A program made the position numbers and the translations under genes. A stretch of 64,000 bases of DNA, taken from Liolophura sinensis. Taxonomy: Eukaryota; Mollusca; Polyplacophora; Chitonida; Chitonidae. Shown here in pieces: positions 2,236 through 64,000 of the stretch. Where the stretch lies: assembly GCF_032854445.1 (NCBI RefSeq), contig NC_088300.1, forward strand, positions 22,985,608 to 23,049,607, read 5' to 3'. The notes beneath the pieces are model-generated. The model was not told the origin of the DNA. It made no database searches and saw only the letters and a list, made by a program, of their open reading frames with translations. Each line of letters opens with the position of its first letter. Within the stretch, counting starts at the first letter, position 1.

Positions 2236-2990
2236 TGTGATCTTCTATATAAACTGTACAGTTGTACTCTCAAATGCTTTTTGATGTCATTTCATTAAAA
2301 TTGACTTTCTTGAGGCATGTTTGCCTTATTTAATGTTACATTTGCACTATTATGACATCACTCAGGACAAATTTTATGAAAGCTTCTGAAGGATTTGGTT
2401 TGGAAGACACTAAAATGGTATTTTTCGTAGTAAAATCCTTTGAACCATGTTCTGTATGGTTTCCTTCAGATTATGAAAACAATCACCCCAGTTTGTCTTG
2501 GAACTGGAGTAGCTTTTTGAAGTATTACATCCGAATGTATTGATTATTGTTGGAATTGTTATATAACTAGCGATTCTACACGATTAAGTTTTGTGCAGAT
2601 CAAATGCTCATACTCACCTGACCCAACTTAAATTCACTGTAATTGTGATTATATGCATTTTAGGAATACTTGGCAATGTGTTTTTTAAATATTTTACATA
2701 GATTTCTGTTTCTTAGTTTTATATAGATTTCTGAGTCTTATCTTTTTATAGATTTCTGTGAAGTTTATATAGATCTCTTGATATTCCGGATTTATAGTGT
2801 TAATTCTTTGGTGGTCAAACAAAATTTATTTCTAATTTTTTATATATACAGTATTTGTGTAATCTCACAGCCTTGAAAGTTTTTGACCTGCATGAACAGG
2901 TTTGAATTTTCTTGAATATGATGGTTTTTTTTTTTTTTTTTTTTTTACATTTTACAGTAACCAAGATCATTTTATTCTGTACATTTTCAG

Positions 2991-3158
2991 GTTGTCTTGG
3001 CCAGTGTGTCTGACCTTGAGAGCGGGTTCTCAAGAGATTTGTTCATAGCCTGGTGCACAGATGCCAAAAACAGCGTGGTTCTGACCAACAGAACGTCTCC
3101 AGGAACTCTTGCAAGATGGCTGATAGACAACCCAGACAACAAAACAGTAACCATGGAG
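2991..3158 (+). CDS. CPSF2: CPSF2 exon (first in window)
   Basis: Acceptor ACATTTTCAG before 2991, donor GAG|GTCAGT after 3158, phase 0 at both ends. It encodes the end of the beta-CASP region ([32 protein letters not shown]). No upstream CPSF2 exon is visible in 1-2990. Confidence 0.93.
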
Positions 3159-6100
3159 GTCAGTAACATTACTTCTGATTGCTGAAGTTGTTGTTGGTGT
3201 TTTTGTTGGTTTTACCATATTACAGATGTTTGGTGAATTCAGTACACAGTATAAAGGTGCATATCAAAACAGATTCTCTGCTTTTCTCCCACCATAATGC
3301 TGGCCTCGTTATATAAGTGAAATATTCTTGAGTACACCATAAAACACCAATTGAATAAATAAATAAATCAACACAAATTTTAAGTTATAATTGAAACTGA
3401 GAGTAACTGATTGACCAGAAGATATTTCAGGTTCCTGTAGTAACTAACAGAAAATATCTGATGTTCCAGCTGAATGACGCTACTTTTCACTAGATAATCT
3501 TGTATGTCGCAGTTCCTATGATTCACAGACGCAAAGCTGATAAACCCGGACGGATTGTGTGTCAATCTCTCTTTTTATTGTCTTTAGAACCATGCTGAGA
3601 AAAGCTAACTTTGGAGATTTTATTGGCTTTTACATTTACCTGGATTGGTGTCCTTGGTGAACTATTTTTACATGCCCTGAGCTTGAGGTGTTAATTATGT
3701 GTGTAGATAACGGGTCTTCTCTGATAACATCACAAATGTGTATAAGACCTACATGACGGTGACCCTCTTCACAAAGAGGGTAAACAACAGATAATGCAGC
3801 CCTTTTGTTTGCAGAAGTGTGAATCTCATCTTAATACTATGCATTTGTGTACACTGCCGATTCCACCGCATTCAATTATTTATGACATGTTATAGATTAT
3901 GTTTTATTTGTGATGATTGTCTACAAAAGCAAGCCGATATACTGTCTACAAATTTACTAGTGCCGTCAACAAAGTTTGAAGATATTCTTTTTTATCTGCT
4001 GTTTGGTTGAAAAGAGCAACGGCATGTATATTTTAAAACATTACCTTGGTGTAAATGCTTTCTGATGCAGTCCTAACGTTGAGTAAGAATTGGCCATGTT
4101 TAGTTTTGGATTCAGGTATTAATGAAGAGTAAACCTGTCACTGCAGCCATCATTCTGACCGTGTACAAGTACATGTACACTCTACATAACTGGTGCAGTG
4201 CAACCTCAAATAACCTCAACCGTATGTATTACACTAGAGTATGGAAATCCATGCACTTTGATATTCAGCTGAGTTACATAAACTACGAGTGATGTTATAT
4301 GTGGATGTCATGTAGGTTGTACTACAGAGGACAGATGCCAAGATAGCACAGGGCCCATTTCATGAAGCTTCCTAACCTGTTTTTGCTTAAGCAAATGTAT
4401 ATTGCTGCAAAAGCAACACAATACTGTACCTTTTGTAGTGTTTGGCTTATGTTTTTTTAAGAAACTCTCCATGATATGTAAGACTACAAACTTAAGGAAT
4501 TTACTGAACTTCAGAGCCAAGGGCTGGTATTTATCTTAAACTTTATGTCAAGTGTTCAAACACAGCTACAAAAACTGTGCTTTAGAAACTTTGAAATTTG
4601 TACACTGATTCTTTAGTGCAGGACAATGTATTAACCACAGTTTGAACTCTTTTTCTGTTATGAGTTTGGCTCTTTAAGGAATTGCAATTAATTTATCACA
4701 GATGTTTAATATCACATTTACAGGATATTAGATTGTAACATGCAGATATGCATACTTTTTTCAAATTTCAGAAACTGTTGGTTTATGGCCAGGATGTGCA
4801 ACATGTTAAACATTTGACAGCATGCACGATAGATATGTACGGATTTGCACAGCACATTGGTAGAAGATCATTGAGTCCACATGATGGCCTGCAGTGGCCA
4901 CACTGAAGTATTGTCTACCACTTATCGTCACCATGGCCTCACAAACATGGGGAGCGCGGAATCTACAAATGGCCTTTCCAAAGCCAATTTAAACCAGCAT
5001 CTTGTTTGCCTTGCACCTGAAGGGCAAGCACATTAAACCACTTTCCATGAGGGACTCCGGCACAGATAGCAGAAATTGAATGCGTTACCACACTATGTAC
5101 ATATGAAGACCCTAATCCCTCAACCTTTTCACATGTGATAGAGCAAATCTCAGTGCAATTTATGCACATTTCTAATTTGATTTTGGATACAAAACTACTT
5201 ATTTGGATTGGCCAGTTTCAGGGCTTCATAAAAATTATAAGTTCAGCAGTTTACATTGAAGAATGCCCCCAGAATATTTTTAAATAAACACTTTGCAAAC
5301 ATGCGCAGCATTTGAAAAATACGTATACATGTAGCTAGTGTAACACGGCTGAAATATTATGTTTGTGAATTGAGCCAGTTCTTCCACTTGACTTTGTTTT
5401 CTAGGTGGAGATAACAGAAAAACTATTTTAGCTCTTGGCTGTATTTGCTGGAATAACGTAAGCATGGTTATTATCTTATGTGGTGAATACTGGTAATAAT
5501 CTGCCTAAAAAACACTTCACATGTCAGTTTTCATTTGGACTTAATTGCTTGTGGCCATCAGATTTCTTTCTAAGGATCCTTTCTTTTCTTTAGTTTTTTG
5601 TTGTTGTTGGCACGAGTCTACACATCATGATGACTTGAGGATACAACATAGAGTTTGGAAGACTTGACCAAAATAGATACATCTATGTCTAGATAATATG
5701 ATTACCTCTCACTACTGATTTGGTTTTTTTTGCCTGTGTTGTGGTGGAACTCTTTGCTTTCAGCGGCTCTGTAATTGTGATTGAAAAGACTGGATCAATA
5801 TTAATAATAAAGGTCTATCTGGACCGAGGCCTAATAAAAACAGGTCAGCCATTACCCAGTGTTAAAGACAGCGGAAAAGCTCATTCCGTAGTCAAGTCTC
5901 ATAAAGCCGGAGTAGAAAATGTCAAACATGTTCAAGTATACACTTCCTGATTTCTCGTTTGTCATCGGTGTTGCATGCTAAATCTCATTTCTCCTCTGGA
6001 ATTGATCTTTTTACCAGAGAGAAGACTTCAGATATACATCACTGTGAAAAGATGCTCAGACTTGAGACTTGTTTGTGTTAAATACTTTGTTGATGTTACA

Positions 6101-28620: not shown

Positions 28621-28992
28621 TCAATTATCTATATCCTTCCACTCACACCGTGTACCGCGCCATCCTTCGAAACAGCTGCACCGAAACGCCTGATCGTACC
28701 TCCGCTGGTGTTTGGCGAACATAGAGACAAACCCGTGCTTGTAATGGTGTGGCCTTGTTTTGGACGGGAAGTGTTTTTTACGTACACATCTTCCTCGTCC
28801 TTCACACAGAGTTTTGCTGCAGTCTGTCACAAATCTCTGTAAGGTCATCAAAAAAGGTCCCAGCATTTTCTGGACATATTTTTTAAGCTGGACACACTTT
28901 CGTTTTCCGACTGTGTTAGCGTATTTCTCCCACAAAACTATACCTGATGACCCAGATGTAGCTGCTTGTCCAATGGTTCCTTCCAAATCATT
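28621..28992 (-). CDS. Hyaluronidase exon 5 with EGF-like module and stop
   Basis: Acceptor TTTCTTCTGAACAG, phase 0; joins ...FLLSR to NDLEGTIGQAATSGSSGIVL. Encodes residues 644-766, the end of the barrel and the Cys-rich EGF-like tail. TGA at 28623-28621. No hydrophobic GPI-type tail follows. Confidence 0.94.
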   Translation of the reverse strand, partial: NDLEGTIGQAATSGSSGIVLWEKYANTVGKRKCVQLKKYVQKMLGPFLMTLQRFVTDCSKTLCEGRGRCVRKKHFPSKTRPHHYKHGFVSMFAKHQRRYDQAFRCSCFEGWRGTRCEWKDIDN

Positions 28993-31900
28993 CTGTTCAG
29001 AAGAAATCGAAAATAAAGACAAAACAAAAAACGAAAAGGATAGCACATCACATGAACTATTTACGCGATATGAACAGAGATGGAGTATTTTTTTCCCACA
29101 CCCATGGCTAACAACACAATAACATAAGGAAACCACCAGCTCTACCATGAATAAAAACATCCCGCTGCAACGTCTTCACGACGTTCTCGCCCCACGCCTA
29201 TGCTACGTGCAGATTACAATCTCTTGATTAGGTAGGCTTTTAAGTTATATTTACTCAATCCTGCTCTGTTTTATTTTCTTTTTTCTATGCCAATTGCAAA
29301 TTATACCATTAACTTGATAAAATTATCTTGAATTTGTACGCTTAAAACTGTCCCATTGCTCTAGTCCAATGTTACCCAATGTTATGGATATACGAATTCA
29401 CGTTTTCGGGTTTGGAACGTAAATAAAGTCACGTGGTGCTGTTTGACCATTCAATAACGGTGGGGATTCGTTGCGTGACCTTTGGCCGAGCTAATTCTAG
29501 CTCTTTTCTTCATGCTGAGAGTTTGTTTGCGCCCTAAAGATCGACCCACTTGACCGTATAATGCAACATTACCAACTAATTTTATATTACACATAGGCTA
29601 CCACAGTTAACTACCTTGTCGTACCTTGTATTAACTGTTACTCTCGCACAGGGCAGACAAGATATTAACGTAACTTACCCGTGACAGAAGGAAGTTCATA
29701 TCGCTGTTGCTGACCCCAATGTAACTTACCCGTGACAGAAGGAAGTTCGTATCGCTGTAGCTGATCCTAATGTAACTTATCCGTGACAGAAGGAAGTTCG
29801 TATCGCTGTATCTGACCTTAATGTAACTTACCTGTGGCAGAAGGAAGTTTATATCGCTGTATCTGACCCTAATGTAATTTACCCATGACAGAAGGATGTT
29901 CGTATCGCTGTATCTGACCATAATGTAACTTACCCGTGCCAGAAAGAAGTTCGTATCGCTGTATCTGACCTTAATGTAACTTACCCGTGGCAGAAGGAAG
30001 TTTATGTCGCTGTATCTGACCCTAATGTAACTTATCCGTGGCGGAAGGAAGCTTGTATCGCTGTATCTGACCCTAATGCAACTTACCCGTGACAGAAGGA
30101 AGTTTGTATCGCTGTAGCTGATCCTAATATGACTTACTCGTGACAGAAGGAAGTTTATATCGCTGTATCTGACCATAATGTAACTTACCCGTGGCAGAAG
30201 GGAGTTTATATCGCTGTATCTGACCCTAATGTAACTTACCCGTTACGGAAGGAAGTTTGTATCGCTGTATTTGACACTAATGTAACTTACCCGTGACAGA
30301 AGGAAGTTTGTATCGCTGTATCTGATCCTATAGTCTGTTTCTTTTAGAGACTCGCCTATTTTCAGCTGTTTGTAAAATCAGTCATACGCTGCCAAAATTG
30401 CCTTTAGTCACTGACATATAACAAAATAAGATCTACACATTGACATATTTGAAGTTCACATTATTGCTTGGAAAATGAAGTTAGAACACTTTTTCCAATG
30501 GGATACCGGCGGGTTTTCTTTCCACAGCAGGTGGCGCTAGTGTGAATTTGGAGTTGCACGTCACAAGTCTTTTGTTGCGCGACGCCAAACATGTTGCGTG
30601 CAGCGGTTTCATCTGTGACGTATTTGGTCTACCCATTGTGACATCGCGCTGTTGACGCTGCAGTGGAATGTCCAACGTCAATGAAATGACGCAATACGTC
30701 CCACTTCGGACTTCTGCCGGTATCCCATTCATAGTGTTAAAGTTTATAAGCCCCATTTCGACGGCAAGAATCCACTGCCTCGAGTGACGTCATAATTATT
30801 CCAAAACCAGTGGCATGCTGGATTTTGGGCGGAGTTAGATATGTTTTCACGGACGGCGACACCAGTTACCTAAACTGCTATCGATTTTACTTTAAACCCT
30901 CTTTCTGACGCTGCCATATTTTAAATTCTTTACACGTATAATATAACCCTAATCAATGTGTTTGATTTTATTTGTTGTGGTCTATGGTTTCACGGCAGTA
31001 TGGTTTTAAAGCTGGATATTGCGAAATTTTGTTATAAAAAACATTGTAGTCTATTCGCTGAGAGTGTAGTGTAAGCTGTGTTACTGCAAGGACTTTGTCC
31101 TAACTGCAAACATATTTCAACATATCCAAGTGTAGAGCTTGTGCTGTTAGGTATCACTGGCTAAAGGCAATTTTGGTAGCGAGTATGACTGACGAAGTTT
31201 GTATCGCTGTATCTGACCCTAATGTTACTTACCCGTGACAGAAGGAAGTTTGTATCGCTATATCTGATTCTGGCATAAGGTAGAACTGGAGTCCTTGCTC
31301 TGTTCGTGTGTGTTTTTTGTATCCTGTAGCCCTCCTGAAGGATACCCTTGATGTGACCTGCCCGGTACTTGGGGCGGAGTTTTTGAGTGAGGTATATTGA
31401 CGGGTAGAGAGCTCCACTGGCTCGAAACAGCCACCACAACCTGTAGGGAAGAGTGATGCTAACGAAGTCACACTGGCTCTGAACAATCACTGCAATAAAC
31501 CTGCATGGGCGAAAAATGTTTAGAAAGGGGACACGTGTAGACCGGCTTAAAGTCGCATTCCGTGATTCTGAACAATCAGGACAACCTGAAAAGAAAGTGT
31601 TTAGAAGCTGGCACATACTGAGGGGTAGAGTCAGACTGGCTCTGAACTATTATCCAAACCTGGAAAGAAAACTGTTTAGAAGGTGACACATACTGAGGGG
31701 TAGAGTCAGACTGGCTCTGAACTATTATCCAAACCTGGAAAGAAAACTGTTTAGAAGGTGACACATACAGACCCGTATAATCACACTAGCTCGGAACTGT
31801 TCTACGAACCTGGCAAGAAAAGTGTTTAGAAGGTGACACATACAGATCCGTATAGTCACACTGGCTCTGAATTATTATGCGAATCTGGAAGGAAATGTGT

Positions 31901-34900
31901 TTAGAAAGTGGTATATTCTTCTTTGGTTCGGTCGGTGTGTGCCATTGGGTTGCAAGGCAATCACATTCCTGAATATCGTTGAGATTTTGGATGAGAGGTC
32001 TCTTGGGAAATAACCTGTTAAAGGTGACTATACAAATCCCAAAGGTTCCACATGTTTGCTGAAGATGACATTGCAAAGACGACTTATCTTTGATTTATTT
32101 GATACATTGTACCAGCCATAATTTACTGAAGAACAATTCACAGAAGAAAGTACGAGTACCTGTCGTTTCTTTTGGTTTGCTTCTTGTCACAGTAGTCTTG
32201 ACCGTTTCGGAAATTATAGCAGTCTGGGAAAAGGTAAAATCCCCATTTGGCCAATGGCCGGAGGTCTTTCGCCAGGGACAGGGTGGCTGTAATGAAACGC
32301 CTGTAAAATATCACAAAGATGAAAATTGTTATTAATTTATACCTTTGCAACATTCCGTAGATGCAGTAAAAAGTAAACTCCACAATTTGTTACAAATGAG
32401 GAATAAAAGTGTGCTCGAAATGAACGTAACTGGTTAAAATGCGGTTTTCAGTCCAGTTCACTTTACCGTTAGGCCTGGTTGCCATTGGATGAGTGAAATA
32501 ATCTAGATTATGATGGGAAAGTCCGATAAAATTAATTGACAAATGTGTTAAAGATTCTGTTAAACTAAAAGCACTGAAGGCAAGTAAATAATAATTACAT
32601 TAGAACAATTGCTTTATGTTCGGGTGGGTTGACAAATCATTGTTACATGTTCTTCTTTTGTTTTATTGTCATTTTCTTCCGGACGAAAGAGACCAGACCC
32701 CAGAATCACGAAGAGATCTTAGACTTGTGTCAAAATTTCAATCATTAAATTTAGTATGTTTGGTATGTTTATTCTCGATATTTTTGCTGAAAATTGCTTT
32801 ACAATAACTTGCGCTGAATTTGCGCTGTCAAGCAATAATTTGATCTTGTTACGTAAGAAATAACTATTTTAAAGTGATTTTGAAATTTTGACTTAAGTCT
32901 ATGATCGCTTCGTGATCCCCGGAACCTGTATCCTACATTGGTAAATGAATAAAGTAATTTAGCTTAGACTGTTCTGATATAGTTTAGTAAAGGCACTGTT
33001 TTTGAATTTCACATGATTAACATCAACTTTGTACGTACATGAGAGTTAGTTGTTTTGTGTGGCTTTTGCTTGAAGAACATCTAACCTTGCAGATATGTCA
33101 AACTCTTTCTTGGCGTATGCCTTGACCGTGGTATAGTTCCAGGATGGGTACTGTTTAGCAATCGCTTTGACAGCCCTTTCTTTGTACATGCGATGAACAC
33201 CCCAGTTACGTCGAAATATCGGCCGCCAGGACTCCCAGTCTATCACACCATACCCACTGAAGTTTGCGTTCGGAATCCGCTTTTCTATGTCACCTCGTGC
33301 TTTAGCCAGGTGCATGTCCATATTGGCTAACTGAAAAAACAACAGTTTTTTTTCTTGATGAAAGTTTCCTAACAAAATCATTTTAAAAACTCCAAAATTC
33401 CAAAAACTCCGTTATCACGACTCCCAAAGTCTTAAAATGGTTTTATGTTGTAGCTAATGCAGATCAACTTTTTTAGTCTATGATTTGTAGAAATTTGTAC
33501 TTTTGGACAGCCATTTTTGGAAGTCATGACCTTGAAGTCGAATCCTGGAAATCTGTGTAACCTGTACCTCATATTCTTTTGCAGTTACATTTTTAATAAC
33601 TAACTGTGCCTTTCTCCCCGGCCGTGCGTGGGATGGCCTGTCATTAACCTGCGGATAGTCGTGTGTTTCACCCTACCATAATGCTGGTCGCTCTCGCATA
33701 AGTTATTTATTTTTGAGTACGATGTAAAAATACCAATCAAATAAATAAATAAATAAATAACGGTTTTAATTTCGGTTATTGTCAAGATAGTACGTCTATC
33801 TTAAGTTTAGATATTTTAGACAAACCTAGTTCGCCAGGAAACCGAATTTTTAGATGGATCCCATAAGGATAAACATATTTTAGTCATTTGCATTTAGGGT
33901 GTTTAACCATGCTGTAAGAAGATTGCTTCTTGTTCATACTGGGGTAAACACTGGTGGTTTCGAGTTTCCGTGTCAACGCTCTCGTTGTTGCAACCATCTA
34001 CTGTACCAGCACTATATCTTGATGAGTACTGGAAGTAGTATACAGCCTAAAGAATGTATAATTCGCTGCACTTGCCAAAAGGCTTTAACAATTACGTCGA
34101 GTACATCTGTCCTGCTTTAACCTCTTGCACGTTACAAAATCACTGGAGCTTTTCACAGGGATTTCACATTTCTGCAGAGTCAGGACAAATCTGGCATCGG
34201 TTCCACGCTGACACGGCTCTATTTATATAAATACATGGGTATGTGAAAGTCGTTTGCGGCTGATGGGACCTGACATTTGCACGATCGTGTGAATGTCTCA
34301 GGCGTGGAAGCCGAGTTGTACTAGGGTAAAACAACACCATCAAGTCGAGTGTACCGGCTTCTTCAGGCTAGATTACCCACAGGCCTCGTACCTTTATACT
34401 AAAACAAAAGGTATATTGGTGTAAAAGCGAAGCATAGGCTATAGGTGTGGATAAAAACACCCAACATACAGCATGTGCACCTGCATGTTGGTGTTCATGC
34501 ATGAAAACAACAGATATGTGTTATTTCTAGCTTTGCTGTATCGCTACGCCTATATGAACTCTATATTATAAGACAATAGTTTCAGCTTGCAGTGTTCATA
34601 ATGAATAACTGTTTGCAATGAACAATTCCAATCAAAGTGCTACTGGGAGACATCCACAACTTATATAAGCCTACTAGCATGGAACACCATCTGAATACTG
34701 ATTTCACTCATTTGCATGGAAATTTCCCCCCTTTTTACCCCTGGTTTCAAAAGCGTTCGCCTCGAAAACCAGATAAACCCATACTGTTTCCTGCTCTCAC
34801 CACGATATGGCGGAAGTACTGTAGATGAGACGTAGTCAGAAATATTCATTCACTCGCACGACTACATGCGCTGATTAACTTATGTAGCCTAATTCAGCAC

Positions 34901-37900
34901 TAACATTTGATTTTTAAACCTTATCTAAGATGACCAAATGAAATGCTAACCTGCAATCAATTTTATTAGATCTTTTGATGAAATGACCTCCGCATTTTAC
35001 TAATAAATTGGGATAATAAGCTTGACCAAAACCAGATTGACAGAATCTTTAGTTTTGTTTTCGCCTAACAACGATTACGTGACTGTCTCGTCATCCCGCT
35101 GACATCATTCTGTATAAACATCGGTCTTTCACTGAAAGGAAAGTAGCGCATGGAAAACTCCAACTATACTCCAGTTTAAATCACGAAGCTAAATTTAAAT
35201 CAAACCTAGTCTTAGGGGTAAAGCAGTTTACTAACCTCAAATTGTGTATTACGCTAGGAATTCTCATTTTAATACTTAAAGGAGAAGAAAACTTAAAAAA
35301 ATGACACTGTAGGCTGAAAAGATCACATTTTTATCTATCTGGTGGTGCCCGCTGCATAATTTTGCGACTTTTCCTCGCCATACACGTAAAGCTTGAAAAC
35401 GGCAAAGCTAGCATAAATCGCTGTCCATGGCGCACTTCATCTTTAACACCCTGTAATTTATGCTTGGGGTGGGTTGCCTCTCAGCCAGTGAGAGTCGATA
35501 AAACTGTCCGCTTGTTCGCGTAAACTCGGAACCTACGTCCAACATTCCGGTTTTCCGATCGTCAAGAGGAAAACGAACTGTATTGTTTGCTACCTTCTGG
35601 GAGGAAGAGTTCTACAGGAAATGTACCAATGCACTTCGGCGGCTTCCACCGGCAATTCTCCTCCTAAGAAGAATTAGTTCTTAGGCAAAATGGAATAGCC
35701 CACAGCGGATGTTTTTGCTGACTTTATTTGTAATTTATCAACTTGAGGTACATATTAGAATTTTTTATGGCATGCACCTGCGAGGAAATGCATACTCTTT
35801 TCAATGGTATTTGATTGATATTTAAATTTTCTTCTCTTTTAAAGTTGTCTCTTCATTTCATCAGTTTCATCACAAAATTGAAAGTTAGGCTTTGTGCCCT
35901 TGGTGGGAAGGTCTGCCAGCAACCTGTGGATGGTCATGGCTTTCCCCCGGGCACTGCCCGGTTTCCTCCCACCATAATACTGGCCGCCGTCGTATAAGTG
36001 AAATATTCTTAACTACAGCGTAAAACACCTTTCAACTAACTAACTAACTAACTAACTAACTAAATAAATAAATAAATAAATAAATAACATGGCGTATGAC
36101 CTAAGAAATCCTCGTGCTCACTGGGCATGGTCAAAAGAATCCACCCAAAGGTTGATGGTACGTTTCCAACGTTTCAAATGTGTATGCTCTGTTTGTATTG
36201 CTTAACCGATATAGTCCGCTTAGCTCGACAACTGATGTATTTATTTATTTGTTTATCACGAATATTTCACTTATCCACGGCCATCCACAGGCTGCTGACA
36301 GATCTTCCCATGCAAGTACAAGCGGCGAGGAAGACAGCATGGGGTGGACTAACTCATAGCCAGAGCATTGGCGAGATGCCCCTGAGTCTATGATGCACAC
36401 TAACCACTAGGCCACGGAGGCCCTAACAACTGATATAGAATTTGTAGCTATTTTCTTCAAATCTTGTAACATCTGCTCCATTGTTTACAACAGAAATGGA
36501 TGAGGGATATATCCTTATTTAACCTTGAGTACATGTTTGTAGAATGCGGTTTTTAGGTCATACAAATGCTCTCACACTCCAGTCTAAAGGAAAAACGGTG
36601 TGGCCGGAATGACCTGCATTATTGGGTAAAGAACAGATTTACCCAAGAAAACGAACTAACACGTTTAAACGAGGCATTAAGCGAGATTTCTTAACGGTCG
36701 TATGGTAAAGCACATCTGTGTATGATTTGTGTTTACGTTTATACAACCCAACGTTTTTGCGTACGTAACTTCTACTTTCCTGTTCATGTGTGATTAATTG
36801 ATTTGACGTGTGCTTTTTATTAGGTACATATATAATGGCCGTTATATGACATCAACTGTCCGAGTTAAGTAATTTTTTCCGGGTGTCACTCTTTGTTGTC
36901 CGTCTTACTTAGAAGATCGTGAGATATAGAAGGTATATTACCATATATATTTAATATAAAAGATGACAACTTACAGAGTATGAACAATGCAGAGACGGGT
37001 GTTTCATTGCTGGCAAATGGTCACATGTAACCAGTGAAATACGGTTCTTGTCAATTTACTTAAGTTCAGGTCTTGTTCTAATTGCTCTCCTAATGCTTAA
37101 AAAGTAACAAGTTACACGCTCTGGCCCTAGCATCATAGTTTAAATATAATTAATAATAAAATTGCAATGACGATAAATACAATTAATTGGACGTCACTGG
37201 TCTAGAAATACTCAAAATGCTGTTCTGTCATCACATTTTACAAACAATCACATAAGGCTGCATCTGGCACCGTTCTGTTCTCCATTTTCAGTTTAATCAA
37301 CACATGAGCAACTTGGCAGTTCAAATGTCTACAGTACAGGGTAACGGTTCATCAATGTCAGCTAGATGGACTTAATTCTCTGCACCAAAATCATTCAACA
37401 TTGAGCAGTTCCTCTATAAACAGTCCTTCTGTACTTCTGATTTCTAGGACAGCAATTGGATACAAAAAATGGCGGAAGGCTAAACGGACTTTGGCGGTTC
37501 TTACCTCTTGCGTTACCTCCATCGGACAAAATGGCGGAAAATTAACCTGACTTTGGCGGTTTTTACCTCTTGCCTTACCGCCATCAGACAGTGCCTTCAC
37601 GAATACAACTTTTAATACATGCTGACAGACTTTTTCTCGATTCCAATATTTTCTACGTCGAATATTGACCAAGAGAAAAAAATTAGTATCATTGTGTGTT
37701 TGTAACTTCGCTCCTTGGAATAAGGATTACGTTAAGATTATATAGAAACTATCTAGTCAAGAGAACAAACACTTTGCACTGGAAACCACTGCAATGTTAC
37801 TTAATCTTCACTTGGGAGAAGGCCCAACTAAACTGCATGACTGCTCAAAGTCTGCAAAAAACATTAATTTGGCAAGAGTTCCACTTCCTTGCCTCTGTAA

Positions 37901-40452
37901 ACATCGCAATTTCTAACCTTTTTACGCCTTTCTCGAGATTATTTTTCCTGTGCAACCGCAGACTGAAAAATGACCGCAGAAAACCACAGTAACATCGACT
38001 GAGTGACTGTCGATTTGAACACACGAGCTCAAAACTCGTTGCTGAGATTGAAAATAAAACCAAGTGCAACCTGACTAAGTTTTTGAGTTTTGCATATCGA
38101 ATTTAGTTTGAAATGATTTCGCGTTTGAATCCTAGACAATTTCTTGTTTGACGTAGATATGATACAACACTGGATTCAATTTAGATTCGAGCACATCCAG
38201 TGACTGCAATGGAATTTACGCTAGCAGGTGATCTCCGCTGGGAAGCTGTACGGTCATTTGCTCTTGGGATGATTGTGGTGGGTATATAACAGGTGCATAC
38301 TCAGATCACGGCCTCTGGGAGTGTAGCCTCCGTGGTGGGACCAAATCATAGCAGGTGCCCTTAATATTGGAACAGTGGGCTGTGTAGGTACACCCAGAAA
38401 TCACGTGATTATATTATTAGAGATGTAACTACATAGACGATAACCGTTATGTCTTAAATATGTATTTCCTAAGCTGAAGAATATAACGTACTGTATGAAA
38501 TCAAATTTTAGAATGTATATAATTTCCAAAGGCCTAGAATTCATGCAATATATCCATTATACACCTAGTGATAGTTTTTATTTATATATTTCATTAATAT
38601 TCATGGTTATTTCATTTATTCGAAGTCTGTATGATTATTTACGTATGCATGGGTAGGGAAAACACGTACTTTGTCAAACGGTCAAAAATGGTAAACAGAG
38701 TGTGACCCGTAACAATGTTTTATACCACTCAGCTCTATGCATTTTGGACTTACCTATCAATCATACGCGCATGTAGTCATCAATCTCGCTGTGAGTTCAT
38801 CCGTAATGGACGTTCCAGGTCAATAGTAACACAAAGAACACAAAGTACCAAAAGCTAAGAAAGTATATGAAGTATGAAATAAAGACCGAATCATTCAATC
38901 TATCTCACATTGTTATACGTATGCCCTTGAGTTGGCCCGCTATGTTTTCGCTTAGGCTGGGTGAAATATTTCGTTTAGATTGGGTAAAATATCTCAGTTC
39001 GCTATATACTTAAATTGGCCTCTGATATGTTTAAGATTACAGATTGAAATTTCTTCGTAGCTTGAATTCAAAAGATAATCCCCTAACAATAACAATGGAT
39101 CATGAGAGAGTTTTTACCTGAGGTATTCCGCCATTGACCACCTCTCCATCCGCCAACAATCGAGGATAAAAACCAAGGTGATTGGCGTAAAATATAACGA
39201 TTTCCTCTCCGTAGAAGTGTTGATGAGTGTTGTGAAGTATTCCGTATTTGGTCAGTTTAGGAAGAATTCCATACCGAGTTCCACACTTCTTCGACGGAAT
39301 GTTCCAAATAACAAGGAAGGGCTTGGGACTGGGCGGTTCCAACTGACGAGTGGTCATAGCGCTCAATAGGCTATCCGTTGTAACGACAGTCCTATTCTTT
39401 CCCTCACTGGTCTCATTTTGACCACTATCTGCTTTAGTCGTTTCCTTCGTCTCATTTGGTCTAGAAATATGAGTATTATTTGCTACCGGAACTGTTGTTC
39501 TCTTTGTGGTTGGCGCCGGTATGTGTCCAATATCGTTATTCTGTGAAGACGTGGTTGTTGTTGTTGTAACGAGGTAGGTCAGTGTACTCTGTGGGACATT
39601 GGACTCGCTAAATGGGACATCCAACACTTCGGGATCATTGGGAATTTCATTTTCAACATTATTGGAGTCCAATCCTTCATCGGACATGAATCCATACAAT
39701 GCATTATTTGGGCCTTCTGCAGACTTCTTATCCTCCACATCGTTGGGGTTAAATATCACTGATGTCGGTTCTTCAATGCGACGACGTGCCACCGTGTCTT
39801 CAAATCGTTCCGGAACATTGACCCGTCTCGAGGTTCCGTTTCCACTAGCTTCTTCGACAGGAGGCGCATGTCGGGTAACGCTGTTGACTCTTGTAGCTAG
39901 ATCTAGAAACTGACTGGCAGATTCTCCATTAGAGCGGTTGACATTTGTTGTAACGCCTGTAACGCCGCTGGAAGATTTCCCAGTAGCGTTGTTGACTCTT
40001 GTAGTTACGTCTACCAACGTGTAGGATTGCCCAGCAGAACTGTTGACTCTTGTGATGACGGCGTCGGAGTGGTTTCTCTTGGTACCTGCTGGGGGTTCGC
40101 TTACGCGTCTGTCTGCAGACTCGGCATTTGTTATAACTGTTTGTTTTGTACCTATCCTTTCTGGTGTTAACGCTGGCAAGGATATTAACTGCAAAACTGA
40201 TGACGTACTTTTGCCATCGTCCCCATTTAATTTACTCGAAGCAAGTGTTGTTACGCCCATGGTATAATGATTACTTTGTCCATTTGAAGTTTCCAACATT
40301 GTCGACGGATGGCTGGCATGTTTTGCTGTCAATACATCCAAAGCACAGCATACATTTGCAACAAGAGCTAACCTTATAAATGTAAGCATCGAAAACCAGG
40401 AAGGTGTTTTCGATCTGCATTTCGATCTGCGGCGACAATAACTACTTGGCAT
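28621..40452 (-). CDS. Hyaluronidase (glycoside hydrolase family 56) with long N-terminal extension, five coding exons
   Basis: Exons (minus strand): 40452-39118, 33330-33086, 32300-32160, 31440-31233, 28992-28621. Phases agree at every junction (0, 2, 2, 0); total 2301 nt, 766 residues. GH56 enzymes cleave hyaluronan/chondroitin. Landmarks: FLVIWNIPS (about 379-387), FYANHLGFYP (about 421-430), NGGIPQ ending at 445, the acid/base motif GVIDWESWRP with Asp476 and Glu478, WGFYLFPDCYN (546-556), ALYPSIYL (584-591), SSGIVLWE with Trp664, and a C-terminal EGF-like module (CEGRGRC, CSCFEGWRGTRC). Active-site residues look intact. Residues about 1-38 have a basic N-terminus and a hydrophobic stretch (signal peptide or type II anchor); about 45-375 are Ser/Thr/Asn/Val-rich with degenerate 'TRVNxxxG' repeats, unusual for the family. 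Exon 4 lies between arrays of its own splice junctions. The Met at 40452 is the first in frame I could support. Confidence 0.93.
29650..30335 (-). repeat. 51-bp minisatellite made of hyaluronidase exon 4 end plus splice donor (13 copies)
   Basis: On the minus strand each unit reads 'agatacagcgatacaaactt' + 'ccttctgtcacgg' then 'gtaagttacattag'. The first part encodes RYSDTNFLLSR, the true end of exon 4, and the second is the intron 4 donor. Thirteen units start about every 51 bp; eleven keep GTAAGT or GTAAAT at the donor position, two have GATAAGT. The reading frame is kept across most units (17 codons each). Confidence 0.93.
30379..31191. mobile_element. Putative non-autonomous DNA element with imperfect terminal inverted repeats (813 bp)
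   Basis: The left end 'cagtcatacgctgccaaaat' + 'tgcctttag' is matched in inverse by 31145-31191 ('cagtcatactcgctaccaaa' + 'attgcctttag' on the minus strand). Weaker inverted similarity continues inward to about 110 bp ('gatctacacattgacatat' vs 'gctctacacttggatatg'). No clear target-site duplication and no transposase. It lies between exon 4 with its partial unit and the 51-bp array. Confidence 0.7.
30486..30740. mobile_element. Putative nested MITE with 14-bp perfect inverted ends
   Basis: 'aatgggataccggc' at 30497-30510 is perfectly inverted at 30716-30729. Imperfect similarity extends outward ('aacact' at both ends). It lies inside the 813-bp element. Confidence 0.6.
31192..31232 (-). repeat. 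Partial 51-bp unit directly after exon 4
   Basis: Right after the true donor the minus strand reads 'gggtcagatacagcgataca' then stops matching at about 31196, at the edge of a terminal-inverted-repeat element. It shows the array originally began at exon 4 itself. Confidence 0.85.
31233..31440 (-). CDS. Hyaluronidase exon 4 (flanked by arrays of its own junctions)
   Basis: Acceptor CTCTTCCCTACAG, donor TCACGG|GTAAGT; enters phase 2, leaves phase 0. Encodes LWWLFRASGALYPSIYL through ARIRYSDTNFLLSR. The last 36 nt and the donor form the first unit of the 51-bp repeat seen at 29650-30335, and the first ~45 nt resemble the units at 31444-31920. Confidence 0.94.
31444..31920 (-). repeat. ~75-bp minisatellite resembling the hyaluronidase exon 4 acceptor and exon start (six copies)
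   Basis: On the minus strand units run 'acagttttctttccag' then 'gtttggataatagttcagag' + 'ccagtctgactctacccctc'. The true exon 4 junction is 'actcttccctacag' then 'gttgtggtggctgtttcgag' + 'ccagtggagctctctacccg'. All six copies keep CAG at the junction position (31500, 31585, 31660, 31735, 31809, 31886). Similarity to the exon is about 70% by eye; units carry in-frame stops after the junction. Confidence 0.8.
32160..32300 (-). CDS. Hyaluronidase exon 3
   Basis: Acceptor TATTTTACAG, donor GACAG|GTACTC, phase 2 at both ends. Encodes RRFITATLSLAKDLRP and WGFYLFPDCYN, highly diagnostic of GH56. Confidence 0.95.
33086..33330 (-). CDS. Hyaluronidase exon 2 (catalytic acid motif)
   Basis: Acceptor GTTTTTTCAG, donor GCAAG|GTTAGA, entering in phase 0 and leaving in phase 2. 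Encodes residues 446-526, including VIDWESWRPIFRRNW with the catalytic Asp-x-Glu. The open frame extends beyond both splice sites, but the neighbouring exons require these boundaries. Confidence 0.95.
33605..33762 (+). mobile_element. SINE 3' two-thirds
   Basis: From 'gcctttctccccggccgtgc' through 'ccataatgctggtcgctctc' to an (AAAT)n tail; short head and altered '...ttatttatttttgagtacg'. Confidence 0.85.
35908..36088 (+). mobile_element. SINE 3' two-thirds with expanded tail
   Basis: 'gggaaggtctgccagcaacc', 'tttcccccgggcactgcccg' and 'tcctcccaccataatactgg' are followed by a tail expanded to (AACT)n then (AAAT)n. Confidence 0.9.
36237..36425 (-). mobile_element. SINE with internal deletion and 9-bp target-site duplication
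   Basis: Has the tRNA-like head ('gggcctccgtggcctagtgg' on the minus strand) and the tail, but most of the core is deleted. 'acaactgat' duplications at 36228-36236 and 36426-36434 bound it. Confidence 0.9.
39118..40452 (-). CDS. Hyaluronidase exon 1 (signal/anchor, mucin-like region, start of GH56 domain)
   Basis: Encodes residues 1-445 and ends at NGGIPQ with donor CAG|GTAAAA, phase 0. The hydrophobic segment is WFSMLTFIRLALVANVCCAL. The middle has many Asn-x-Ser/Thr sequons and repeats such as VTTRVNNATGKSS and ITRVNSSAGQS. A later Met (residue 22) would give a more conventional signal peptide. Confidence 0.9.
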
Positions 40453-41999
40453 TTTTTTCCTCCGACACCGAAAAGTTATCCACGCCCTGCCTTCATCAAC
40501 TCAAACTGCAAGCGTTTGATGCAGGTAAACAGTTCCAGCCTACAGCAGGTCAATCTGCTACGCTTGAAAGGCAGAAATGACAACAACAACCACGAGAGAA
40601 TGCAGCATATATCCAATCTTCGAATGGATCTTCAGGAATGCGCAGCAACGGGGATCAACCTGCGTGCACTGCTGATAAACAGCCACCGCTGTGTTTAAGT
40701 CAAACGTTAGTCTTTACACCTGCATCACTGCATCAAGTTGAATGGCTCGCTAGATTATTACTGATGGAGAAGTCTCTGGGAAAGTGAAATTGTGAGCGGG
40801 AAAATAGTACGCGTAAACAAATGTTTCTTATGTGAACCGCATGCTGTGGTTTTTACGCAGCTATATTGGGAGTTGTGTCTTTAAGAGCGTATCTAGAACA
40901 GGTGCGTTGGTTTAATATTGAGCACTACTGACCCAAATTCGGCGCGTTAGTGGCCCGGATAGGCGCCTTAGGAGAAACTCTGTAGGCAGAGAAATGCTAT
41001 TTATACATAAACCTCGACCCAACCCCTAGTAACACAGAGAAAAACGATGAATGTTATATTTTCCCAAGACTGTCTTAATTAACAGCGTCTGGTCTTCAAC
41101 GAAAATAAAACCCGTAGTTCATTAGTTCTTAATTCTTTTGGGAGGATCGGCCTACAGAATACGTCCAACTGGCATTTGTTTGGAACACGGAAAGACAAAA
41201 CAAAACCGAGGAATATAATATAATGTCAACAAAAACCAGTCACTTTCGTTTGTTTTTCTCTCGTTTTACCTTTCTTACTTCACCCAACTGGAAATAAACA
41301 ATTTATTTTCTTCCAGAAAGGCACGCCATTGGCATTTTCACCAATGATACATTCTCCATTCTTTCCCAGGATTGTCTCTTTTATTGTTCTATACATTCTA
41401 AAAATACATACAATTTGTCACACCAAAGCTAACAAATTTCTTTGCCTGTATCTTGAAATAATTGCATCGGAATCTTTTTTTGGATAAACCGCCGAGAGCG
41501 ACCCAACGGATTGAGCCAGTTCATGCCAAAGCCATAAGCGCGGGGAAAGGTGCCAATCTGGCTCTTTCCTGATTGCTCGGAATTTGCATACGCGACCTCA
41601 TTTGGCATAAGACACAAACATAGGAACCGTTCACGCTACCTGACCTCCCCGAAACCGAAGACCTGTGACACGCAATACTCACGTATAGGACTACCAGAAG
41701 TAAAGGATATCCTTGATTTAAAAGAAGGCAAAACAAACATGCCGCGTAAACACGGCCTCCAGATGTTTGAATGAAGTTTGAATTGTTACCGTATGTCGCT
41801 GATGTTAAACTGGGGTACGACTTGTGAGGTGTTCACTGGCGTATCCAGCCTTCAGACATGTGTATACAATAACAAACAGAAAGGTTTGGCCAGAATTCTA
41901 CTCACATCAGTGTTACAAACTGACTCTCCCTCAGGGCCAAGGGGAACACGTGTGATCTATACAAATGGGATACTCAATGTAACTTCTTAGGGAAGCTTC

Positions 42000-60430: not shown

Positions 60431-63400
60431 CAGCTTCTTTCCTCCATATGCCATGAACATAAATGTCCACACGTCCATTTTCTGTTAAACACAAACCTAA
60501 ATGTCCGTATGTCCAGTTTCTGTTAGACACAAACCTGAATGTCCGTATGTCTTTCCTCCATAGGCCATGAACATAAATATCCGCATGTCCATTTTCTGTT
60601 CCCCACAAAAGTAAATGTCCACACGTCCATTTTCTGTTAGACACAAACCTGAATGTTCACACGTCCATTTTCTGTTAGACACAAACCTGAATGTCCGCAT
60701 GTACAGTTTCTGTCGCATACAAACTTAAATATCCGCATGTCCATTTTCTGTCCTCCACAAACCTGAATGTCCACACGTCCACTTTCTGTTAGACACAAAC
60801 CTGAATGTCCACACGTCCACTTTCTGTTAGACACAAACCTGAATGTCCACACGTCCACTTTCTGTTAGACACAAACCTGAATGTTCACACGTTCATTGTA
60901 TATTAGACACAAACCTGAATGTCCACACGTCCACTTTCTGTCCGCCACAAACCTGAATGTCCACACGTCCACTTTCTGTTAGACACAAACCTGAATGTTC
61001 ACACGTTCATTGTATATTAGACACAAACCTGAATGTCCACACGTCCACTTTCTGTTAGACACAAACCTGAATGTCCACACGTTCATTGTCTGTTAGACAC
61101 AAATCTGAATGTCCACACGTCCACTTTCTGTTAGACACAAACCTGAATGTCCACATGTCCACTTTCTGTTAGACACAAACCTGAATGTCCGTATGTCCAT
61201 TTTCTGTTAGACACAAACCTGAATGTCCGTATGTCCATTTTCTCTTAGACACAAACCTGAATGTCCACACGTCCATTGTCTGTGAGACACAAACCTGAAT
61301 GTCCACAGGACCACTTTGTGTTAGACAGAAACCTGAATGACCACACGTCCATTGTCTGTTGGACACAAACCTGAATGTCCGCATGTCCATTTTCTGCTAG
61401 ACACAAACTTGAATGACCACACGTCCATTACCTGTTGGACACAAATCTGAATGTCCACACACCCACTTTCTGTTAGACACAAACCCGAATGTCTACACAT
61501 CCATTGTCTATTAGACACAAACCTGAATGTCGACACGTTCATTGTCTATTAGACACAAACCTGAATGTCCACACATCCATTGTCTGTTAGACACAAACTT
61601 GAATGTCCGCATGTCCAGTTTCTTTCACCACAAGCATGAATGTCCCCATGTCCAGTTTCTGTCCCCCACAAACCTGAATGTCCGCATGTCCAGTTTCTGT
61701 CCCATACAAACTTAAATGTCCACACGTTCATTGTCTATTAGACACAAACCTGAATGGCCATTCATCCATTGTCTGTTAGACACAAACATGAATGCTCTCA
61801 TGTCCAGTTTCCGTCCCCCAAAAACCTAATTGTCCGCATGTCCAGTTTCTTTCCCCAACAAACCTGAATGTGCGCATGTCCAGTTTCTGTTCCCCACAAA
61901 CCTCATTGTGCGCATGTGCGTTTTCTGTCCCCCACAAACCTGAATGTCCCCATGTCCAATTTCTGCCCCCCCCCCGCAAAACTGAATGTGTCCATGTCCA
62001 GTTTCTGCCCCCCCCCCTGCAAACCTGGATATGCGCATGTCCAGTTTCTACTCCCCACAAACCTCAATATGCACATGTGCGTTTTCTGTCCTCCACAAGC
62101 CTGAATGTGCACATTTTCATTTGCTGTCCCATACAAATCTGAATGATCACATGTCCATTGTCTGTTAGACACAAACCTGAATGTGTACATGTCCATTTTC
62201 TCTTAGACACAAACCTGAAAGTCAACACGTCCATTGTCCGTTAGACACAAATCTGAATGTCCGCATGTACAGTTTCTGTCTCCCACAAACCTGAATGTTC
62301 CCATGTCCAGTTTCCGTCCCCCAAAAACCTAAATGTCCGCATGTCCAGTTTCTTTCCCCAACAAACCTGAATGTGCGTATGTCCGGTTTCTGTTCCCCAC
62401 AAACCTCAATTTGCACATGTGCGTTTTCTGTCCCTCACAAACCTGAATGTCCGCATGTTCATTTGCTGTCCCATACAAACCTGAATTTCCACTCGTCCAT
62501 TGTCTGTTGGACACAAACCTGAATGTGCACATGTCCATTTTCTGTTCTCCACAAACCTCAATGTCCGCATGCCCAATCTCTGTTCTCAGCAAACCTGAAT
62601 ATCTGCATGTCCATTTTCTATCCCAAGCAAACCTGAATGTGTACAGGTCAAGTTTCTGTACCCCGCAAACCTGAATGTGCACATGTCCATTTTCTGTCCT
62701 TCACAAACCTGAATACCCCCATGTCTATTTTCCGTCCCATAGAAACCTGAATGTGTACATGTCAAATTTCTGCGTTCTGCAAATCTGAATGAGCACGTGC
62801 CCAGTTTTTGTCCTCAACAGACCTAATTTTCCACATGTCCAGTTCCTGTCCCCAGAAAGCTGAATGTCCGCATGCCCATTTCCTGTCCCACACAAAGTTG
62901 AATGCGCGCCTGTCCATTTTTTGTCCCCACAGACCTGAATGTCTGCATGTCCATTTTCTGTCCCCATCAAACCTGAATATCCGCTTGCCCAGTTTCTGTT
63001 CTCCACAGACCTGAATGTCCGCATGTCCAGTTTCTGTCCCCCACAAAACTGAATGTCCGCATGTCCAGTTTCTGTCCCCCACAAACCCTAAATGTCCGCA
63101 TGCGCAGTTTTTGACCGTGACAGGCCTGAATGTTCGCATGCACAATTTTCGTCCCTCACAAACCTGAATGCCCTTATGTCTAGTTTCTGTCTCCCACAAC
63201 CTGAATGCCCGTATGTCCAGTTTCTTTCTCCCACAAACCTGAATGTCCGCTTGCCCAGTTTCTGTTCTCCACAGACCTGAATGTCCGCATGTCCAGTTTC
63301 TGTCCCCCACAAAACTGAATGTCCGGATGTCCTGTTTCTGTCCCCCACAAACCCTAAATGTCCGCATGCCAAGTTTTGGACCGTCACAAGCCTGAATGTT

Positions 63401-64000
63401 TGCATGTACAATTTTCGTCCCTCACAAGCCTGAATGCCCGCATGTCCAGTTTCTGTCTCCCACAACCTGAATGACTGCATGTCCAGTTTCTGTCTCCCAC
63501 AACCTGAATGCCTGCATGTCCAGTTTCTGTCTCCCACAACCTGAATGCCCGTATGTCCAGTTTCTGTCTCCCACAAGCCAGAATTTCCGTATGTCCAGTT
63601 TCTGTCTCCCACAAGCCTGATTGCCCGTATGTCTAGTTTCTGTCTCCCACAACCTGAATGCCCGCATGTCCAGTTTCTGTCTCCCACAACCTGAATGCCC
63701 GCATGTCTAGTTTCTGTCTCCCACAAGCCTGAATGTCCGTATGTCCAGTTTCTGTCCCCCACAAGCCTGAATGCCCGTATGTCCAGTTTTTGTCTCCCAC
63801 AAGCCTGAATGCCCTTATGTCCAGTTTCTGTCTCCCACAACCTGAATGCCCGTATGTCCAGTTTTTGACCGTCACCAGCCTGAATGTTTGCATGTACAAT
63901 TTTCGTCCCTCATAAGCCTGAATGCCCGCATGTCCCGTTTCTGTCTCCCACAACCTGAATGCCCGCATGCCCAGTTTCTGTCTCCCACAAGCCTGAATGC
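60430..64000 (+). repeat. 38-bp satellite-like tandem array (more than 90 copies, runs off the window)
   Basis: Consensus about 'cacaaacctgaatgtccgca' + 'tgtccagtttctgtcccc', period 38 bp. Subtypes occur in blocks: 'ctgttagacacaaacctgaa' units dominate 60620-61600, 'ctgtcccccacaaacctgaa' units 61660-63360, and 'ctgtctcccacaa' units with 'gcccg' 63430-64000. A poly-C variant occurs near 61970 and 62010. Long open frames on both strands follow from three units making 114 bp. Confidence 0.97.

Follow-up and report, generated by a model that had tools for sequence, protein, structure and literature searches.

Why should the end of a conserved exon, together with its splice donor, be found many times over in the intron that follows it? 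This question is raised by a hyaluronidase gene of the chiton Liolophura sinensis. The gene lies in a 64-kb stretch of contig C6, called the window here, and the assembly that was searched comprises 609 Mb in 632 contigs. The original prediction held that a minisatellite in intron 4 of this gene consists of thirteen copies of the exon 4 end plus its donor. The explanation that fits best is that this array and a second one on the other side of exon 4 are, with fairly high probability, mirage minisatellites, that is, arrays in which an exon-intron boundary would have been duplicated in tandem and then expanded inside the intron. The species bears its present name after the correction PMC12441733. 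Eight molluscan haemocyanin matches agree with a chiton and led to the rejection of amphioxus as the host; the absence of a GFP family is a weak argument, as the controls gave no signal for it.

The gene encodes a GH56 hyaluronidase on the minus strand and extends from 28621 to 40500, first known exon to last exon, as judged by PF01630 matches of the exons and an open frame at 39100-40500. Exon 3 (32160-32300) was located by a PF01630 match and by reading its splice sites, and taken alone it has no Pfam match at E 0.01. Exon 4 (31233-31440) contains 69 whole codons and one base of a split codon. It is a real hyaluronidase exon, as it matches PF01630 positions 211-277 with an E value of 2.6e-13 and the PH-20, bee, wasp-type and HYAL1 chains with E values of 7e-6 to 2.4e-4. 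Exon 5, which includes the stop codon, is found at 28621-28992 (PF01630 positions 281-331, E 1.7e-10). Two hyaluronidase paralogues are present on the same contig and their exon 4 has the same extent; the predicted end of exon 4 at 31233 and start of exon 5 at 28992 hold by both PF01630 and the paralogue comparison. The minus-strand open frame at 39100-40500 has 466 codons, and in it a long stretch rich in Ser, Thr and Asn precedes the first GH56 part. A TGA is marked inside the Pfam-matched stretch at the end of this frame.

The donor-side array was called by TRF at 29666-30330 with a period of 51, 13.0 copies, 87% matches and 0% indels. In register with the gene it is made up of 13 full units on the minus strand (29668-30330), each with about 36 nt of the exon 4 end and 15 nt of the intron 4 start. 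A profile built from the 13 units finds, apart from the array, the true exon 4-intron 4 junction (31222-31272, best matched at 31268-31222, E 1.7e-15) and a partial copy next to it (31221-31191, E 1.4e-8), with no other match in the window below E 1. When the junction was searched against the genome, 14 matches were obtained among the best-scored candidates, all of them at the hyaluronidase locus. The TRF call, the register and the profile bear out the claim of thirteen copies and show that the 51-bp unit, as judged from its sequence, is the end of exon 4 with its donor. The likeness is less close than the predicted figure of about 95%. Over the 47 bases in common, the numbers of positions at which the units agree with the true junction are 45, 41, 41, 41, 43, 40, 41, 41, 40, 41, 42, 43 and 39 (mean 88%), and the mean pairwise identity among the units is 0.878.

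As in a mirage, the unit extends over an exon-intron boundary and includes the splice signal, and the series also starts at the authentic boundary. Read from the exon, the order is the junction, the partial copy, a transposable element and the 13 units, which gives 15 boundary copies in all. Since the unit equals the junction and the junction adjoins the partial copy without a gap (31191-31272), the exon end is itself the first unit of the series. It had also been predicted that the reading frame is preserved. The unit is indeed 17 codons long and the frame is open, but unit 2 has a TAA and no protein constraint is visible: the variable columns number 10, 10 and 6 at codon positions 1, 2 and 3, and the concentration of changes in third positions that is expected of a protein-coding repeat was not found among the 13 units.

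What is the element that separates the array from the exon? It has inverted repeats and is found at 30332-31192 on the minus strand, where it cuts the partial copy; its ends, which are approximate, were placed by genome matches, by the inverted arms and by comparison with seven other copies. At least 203 matches to it exist in the genome, the best 40 of 2362 candidates having been scored. A second element with perfect 14-bp inverted ends is nested in it at 30495-30729 and has separate matches of 90-91% elsewhere. Several of the ends of the seven other copies read ACTATA (both ends of L004 and L008, one end of L006) and others vary. The exon-side end of the present copy is without the outer part of the inverted repeat. 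Its array-side end reads GACTATAGGATCAG, and TTAGGATCAG is also the sequence found from unit to unit, which fits an insertion at TA within the array. We infer that the element was inserted into the array and that a deletion followed; a target duplication is putative.

As the element and the array touch, it could be proposed that the 51-bp repeats are internal or terminal tandem repeats of the element that merely resemble the exon. This is extremely unlikely. The junction unit matches only the hyaluronidase locus among the best candidates scored, although the element family is so numerous, and the exon 4 end is conserved coding sequence. An origin of the array from the element was rejected because no 51-bp unit occurs in the other element copies among the best candidates scored.

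A second array, missed by the original prediction, is found at the other edge of the exon. It has a period of 75 bp and 4.4 copies (31583-31910, minus strand), and its unit probably joins the last part of intron 3 to the first part of exon 4, acceptor included, to judge by alignment, register and frame. Two degenerate copies of the unit (31459-31602, minus strand) are present between this array and exon 4. The 75-bp profile runs through both of them (E 0.0072 and 2.6e-4) to exon 4 itself with a window-wide E value of 0.049. In a local alignment of the unit with the exon 4 start (score 18), the paired stretch takes in the AG with 15 bases of intron and about 55 of exon, and the AG|G of the unit is set against the AG|G of the exon. 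The distance of the acceptor copies before 31884, 31809, 31734 and 31659 from the true acceptor (31440) is in each case divisible by 3, and all four copies read FRAS in register with the FRAS of exon 4. A further in-frame acceptor copy, before 31500, falls within the degenerate units. The four units are nearer to the start of their own exon 4, with scores of 0, 7, 12 and 12, than to that of either paralogue (-7, -6, 3 and 3 for one and -10, -9, -1 and -1 for the other).

The derivation of the 75-bp unit is weaker than that of the 51-bp unit, on account of the E value of 0.049 and of a randomisation in which 2000 first-order shuffles of the exon 4 start gave a mean score of 8.8 (s.d. 1.4) and a maximum equal to the observed score. 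On these two grounds it may be suggested that the 75-bp array has no relation to exon 4, that it resembles the exon by chance and that only the donor side is a mirage. This suggestion is distinctly improbable, as the splice sites of unit and exon coincide, frame and FRAS are kept, and the resemblance carries on through the two degenerate units up to the exon. With the derivation from exon 4 preferred, both edges of the exon have probably been multiplied.

TRF gave 24 rows with a period of at least 15 in the window, which represent 18 distinct arrays. Only the 51-bp and 75-bp arrays have a match to unique sequence other than their own degenerate continuations; for the remaining arrays the outside matches are degenerate continuations beside them. 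A 38-bp array of about 93 copies is present at 60462-63999 and runs up to the window edge. When the arrays of the paralogues were compared with the exons, no exon match was found at the threshold used, and both paralogues are without an exon-derived array. The paralogue L003 has a 51-bp array of 19.9 copies and a 50-bp array of 4.8 copies in its intron 3 (2499-3513 and 1701-1940). No exon parent was found for either, and the 51-bp array is of unrelated sequence. Since the exon 4-exon 5 boundary is common to the two paralogues and these lack an exon-derived array, the exon end is read as ancestral and the array as derived.

Could the copies have consequences for splicing? The donor GT is kept in 11 of the 13 units, as had been predicted; ten have GTAAGT and one GTAAAT, and the GT is lost in two. 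The true donor is CGGGTAAGT, and this exact 9-mer is present in eight of the units. Pairing with the U1 end was computed as -13.0 kcal/mol for the true donor, as -11.4 or -12.1 kcal/mol for nine array donors and as -5.5 to -6.5 kcal/mol for the other four. On the acceptor side, the nearest copy, before 31500, keeps an open frame in phase with exon 4 and would lengthen the exon by 20 codons; the frame is likewise open over 177 nt from a non-homologous AG before 31617. From such features it may be proposed that the arrays are functional, either as a decoy or regulatory bank of splice sites or as a U1-binding cluster, and that they tune hyaluronidase splicing or protect the intron. The retention of GTAAGT in ten units is also predicted by such a role, and it counts against reading the arrays as neutral mirages. 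However, stops follow five of the six homologous acceptor copies. Translation carried on beyond the true donor would also end 23 codons later, within the element; array donors therefore cannot extend exon 4, and the extensions by 17-residue repeats that had been envisaged are impossible in this allele. Moreover, variation affects donor columns and other columns alike, exon-derived arrays are absent in both paralogues, and the mirages of amphioxus reportedly leave splicing undisturbed (PMC3087553, PMC3902484). A functional role seems quite improbable for these reasons.

It is also a known idea that tandem duplication of a segment holding AG|GT can create new splice sites or introns. Seen in this way, the arrays would be an intermediate of intron gain or exon shift by tandem duplication of the Rogers type, with copies recruited as new exon edges. 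Such a model was proposed for amphioxus mirages (PMC3087553), and the in-frame acceptor copy before 31500 would suit it. No intron has been made here, as the position between exons 4 and 5 is shared with the two paralogues, and most copies would yield stops. An intermediate of this kind is very unlikely. Among the fates that had been considered for the array (a bank of decoy donors, exon extensions or tolerance in the intron), tolerance in the intron is the best supported.

If both arrays are mirages, the following course of events may be pictured. A short segment across each boundary of exon 4 would have been duplicated, and slippage or unequal exchange would have expanded the duplicates, on the donor side to the present series that counts the junction and the partial copy. 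The transposable element would then have been inserted in the donor array, a deletion would have removed its outer end and part of one unit, and the second element would have become nested in the first. The arrays may be tolerated because the copy joined to the exon keeps working as a splice site; the remaining copies are intronic and would be nearly neutral.

Are there other such loci in the genome? These were looked for with a pattern of three donor octamers, AGGTAAGT, at a spacing of 35-65 bases, with the reversed pattern as control. The survey is limited to a single donor form within a narrow range of spacings and does not pick up the hyaluronidase array, whose donor is CGGGTAAGT. The genome contains 899 matches to the donor pattern and 665 to the reversed pattern, and a 193-kb sample that includes the arrays holds 5 and 9 single octamers, respectively. 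No excess of donor arrays was found in the first 82.5 Mb of C1 (14 donor vs 17 control arrays). As donor-octamer arrays are no commoner than control arrays, the simplest cause is random birth of arrays across exon edges, and the hyaluronidase array is most likely a neutral by-product of frequent minisatellite birth.

Among the matches listed there are 21 donor arrays up to 93.4 Mb of C1, 20 of which were examined (the one at 93.39 Mb was left out), and 17 control arrays up to 82.5 Mb, 14 of which were examined (those near 3.55, 8.81 and 33.53 Mb were left out). Open frames next to 17 of the 20 donor arrays (L042, L048 and L049 left out) and 10 of the 14 control arrays were searched with Pfam, and one locus in each set scored above the family cut-off. 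In the control locus, L063, about 115 nt separate the array from the end of the open frame of a GPCR exon that precedes it. Another control array, L066, also repeats GTAAAT/GTAAAC sites and has no Pfam match. The donor locus, L045 (C1:3201500-3205000, minus strand), is a Core-2/I-branching enzyme gene. Its upstream open frame matches PF02485 with an E value of 1.2e-29. The exon that ends in the array matches the same family (E 3e-6) and is aligned to residue 79, with the exon end at 81; a PDB match (E 0.004) also stops at this point. The exon end and donor recur there as a 46-bp unit in 39 copies that match the exon unit at 35-44 of 46 bases, and the GT is kept in 36 of them. This array is a homology-confirmed mirage.

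An IKK-like kinase gene, L050 (C1:34951800-34954700), very probably carries another. The exon end plus 12 intron bases form a 65-bp unit in 22 copies at 1385-2901, up to the end of the stretch, and GT is present in all 23 units, junction included. The upstream exon matches IKK-beta with an E value of 2e-11. The exon that bears the array matched nothing alone; when it is joined to its neighbour the alignment extends to residue 107 of 112, with the score rising only from 46.9 to 48.1 bits. Six more arrays (L041, L047, L052, L053, L058 and L059) resemble mirages on visual inspection, in that the first unit is similar to the terminal part of an open exon and its donor, and none has a Pfam match above cut-off. 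At L056 a lone copy of the 64-bp unit (774-854, E 3.3e-15) is found about 240 bases from its array and is possibly the parent sequence. In a sample of 30 p450 loci, some overlapping, with 25 TRF rows, no array matched a p450 exon stretch.

A codon-usage test on the 90 nt before the first donor of the 20 arrays was weak and was set aside as evidence; two of the four true hyaluronidase exons score below zero in it. For its training, 4 of the 30 p450 loci had been omitted beforehand and 10 of the remaining 26 were dropped for stops in the frame read. Two of the 20 arrays gave p < 0.05 (L053 and L058), and the homology-backed L045 and L050 gave p values of 0.12 and 0.53.

That a mollusc has such arrays on one edge of an exon and probably on the other as well, and a mirage in at least one further gene, means that mirages are not confined to lancelets. 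The chiton provides a second genome, with published RNA, in which it can be asked whether the splicing machinery simply ignores exon-edge copies as noise or whether these contribute to alternative splicing and intron gain. Mirages may even be general in chiton genomes, produced by a junction-preferring process that recurs in distant phyla, and may constitute a stock of spare splice sites for edge shifts. This broader idea is unlikely; if it were true, the in-frame acceptor copy before 31500, with its 20 codons, would be the first step of such a shift. A search of the open-access literature, covering mollusc cases and papers that cite the Adh work, found no report of mirages outside lancelets, which is no proof of priority.

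The phenomenon itself is known. The idea of a splice-junction duplication is sound in that the unit derives from the exon end, but it is not new, since such arrays had already been named mirages in amphioxus (PMC3087553). That report describes them in the globin genes BflGb6 and BflGb9, at both kinds of boundary; RT-PCR suggests normal splicing and the mechanism is termed unclear. PMC3902484 adds PGBD5 and troponin C. The two papers also report mirages in Adh, units that are 81-100% identical in BflGb6, and normal splicing together with length variation. The chiton arrays are similar in that tandem units extend (on the acceptor side probably) across an exon-intron boundary, many of them with AG/GT, lie in the intron beside that boundary and can affect either kind of boundary. 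They differ in that the chiton is a mollusc and not a cephalochordate, both edges of a single exon are probably involved and the donor series is split by an element.

Duplication of a boundary is in itself known outside amphioxus, in a potato gene (PMC4974935) and in human segmental duplications (PMC2812944). The first of these papers describes tandem duplication with a new intron in potato RdRp, vertebrate ATP2A1 and fission yeast. Local tandem duplication multiplies splice signals there as in the chiton, and the potato copy also comes from an intron-exon stretch. In the chiton, however, the intron is old and no new intron is evident. The second describes internal tandem repeats that modify genes in human segmental duplications, and there too minisatellites can sit at exon-intron boundaries. 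Those repeats alter the exon/intron structure of recent paralogues and are often coding, whereas the chiton copies are intronic.
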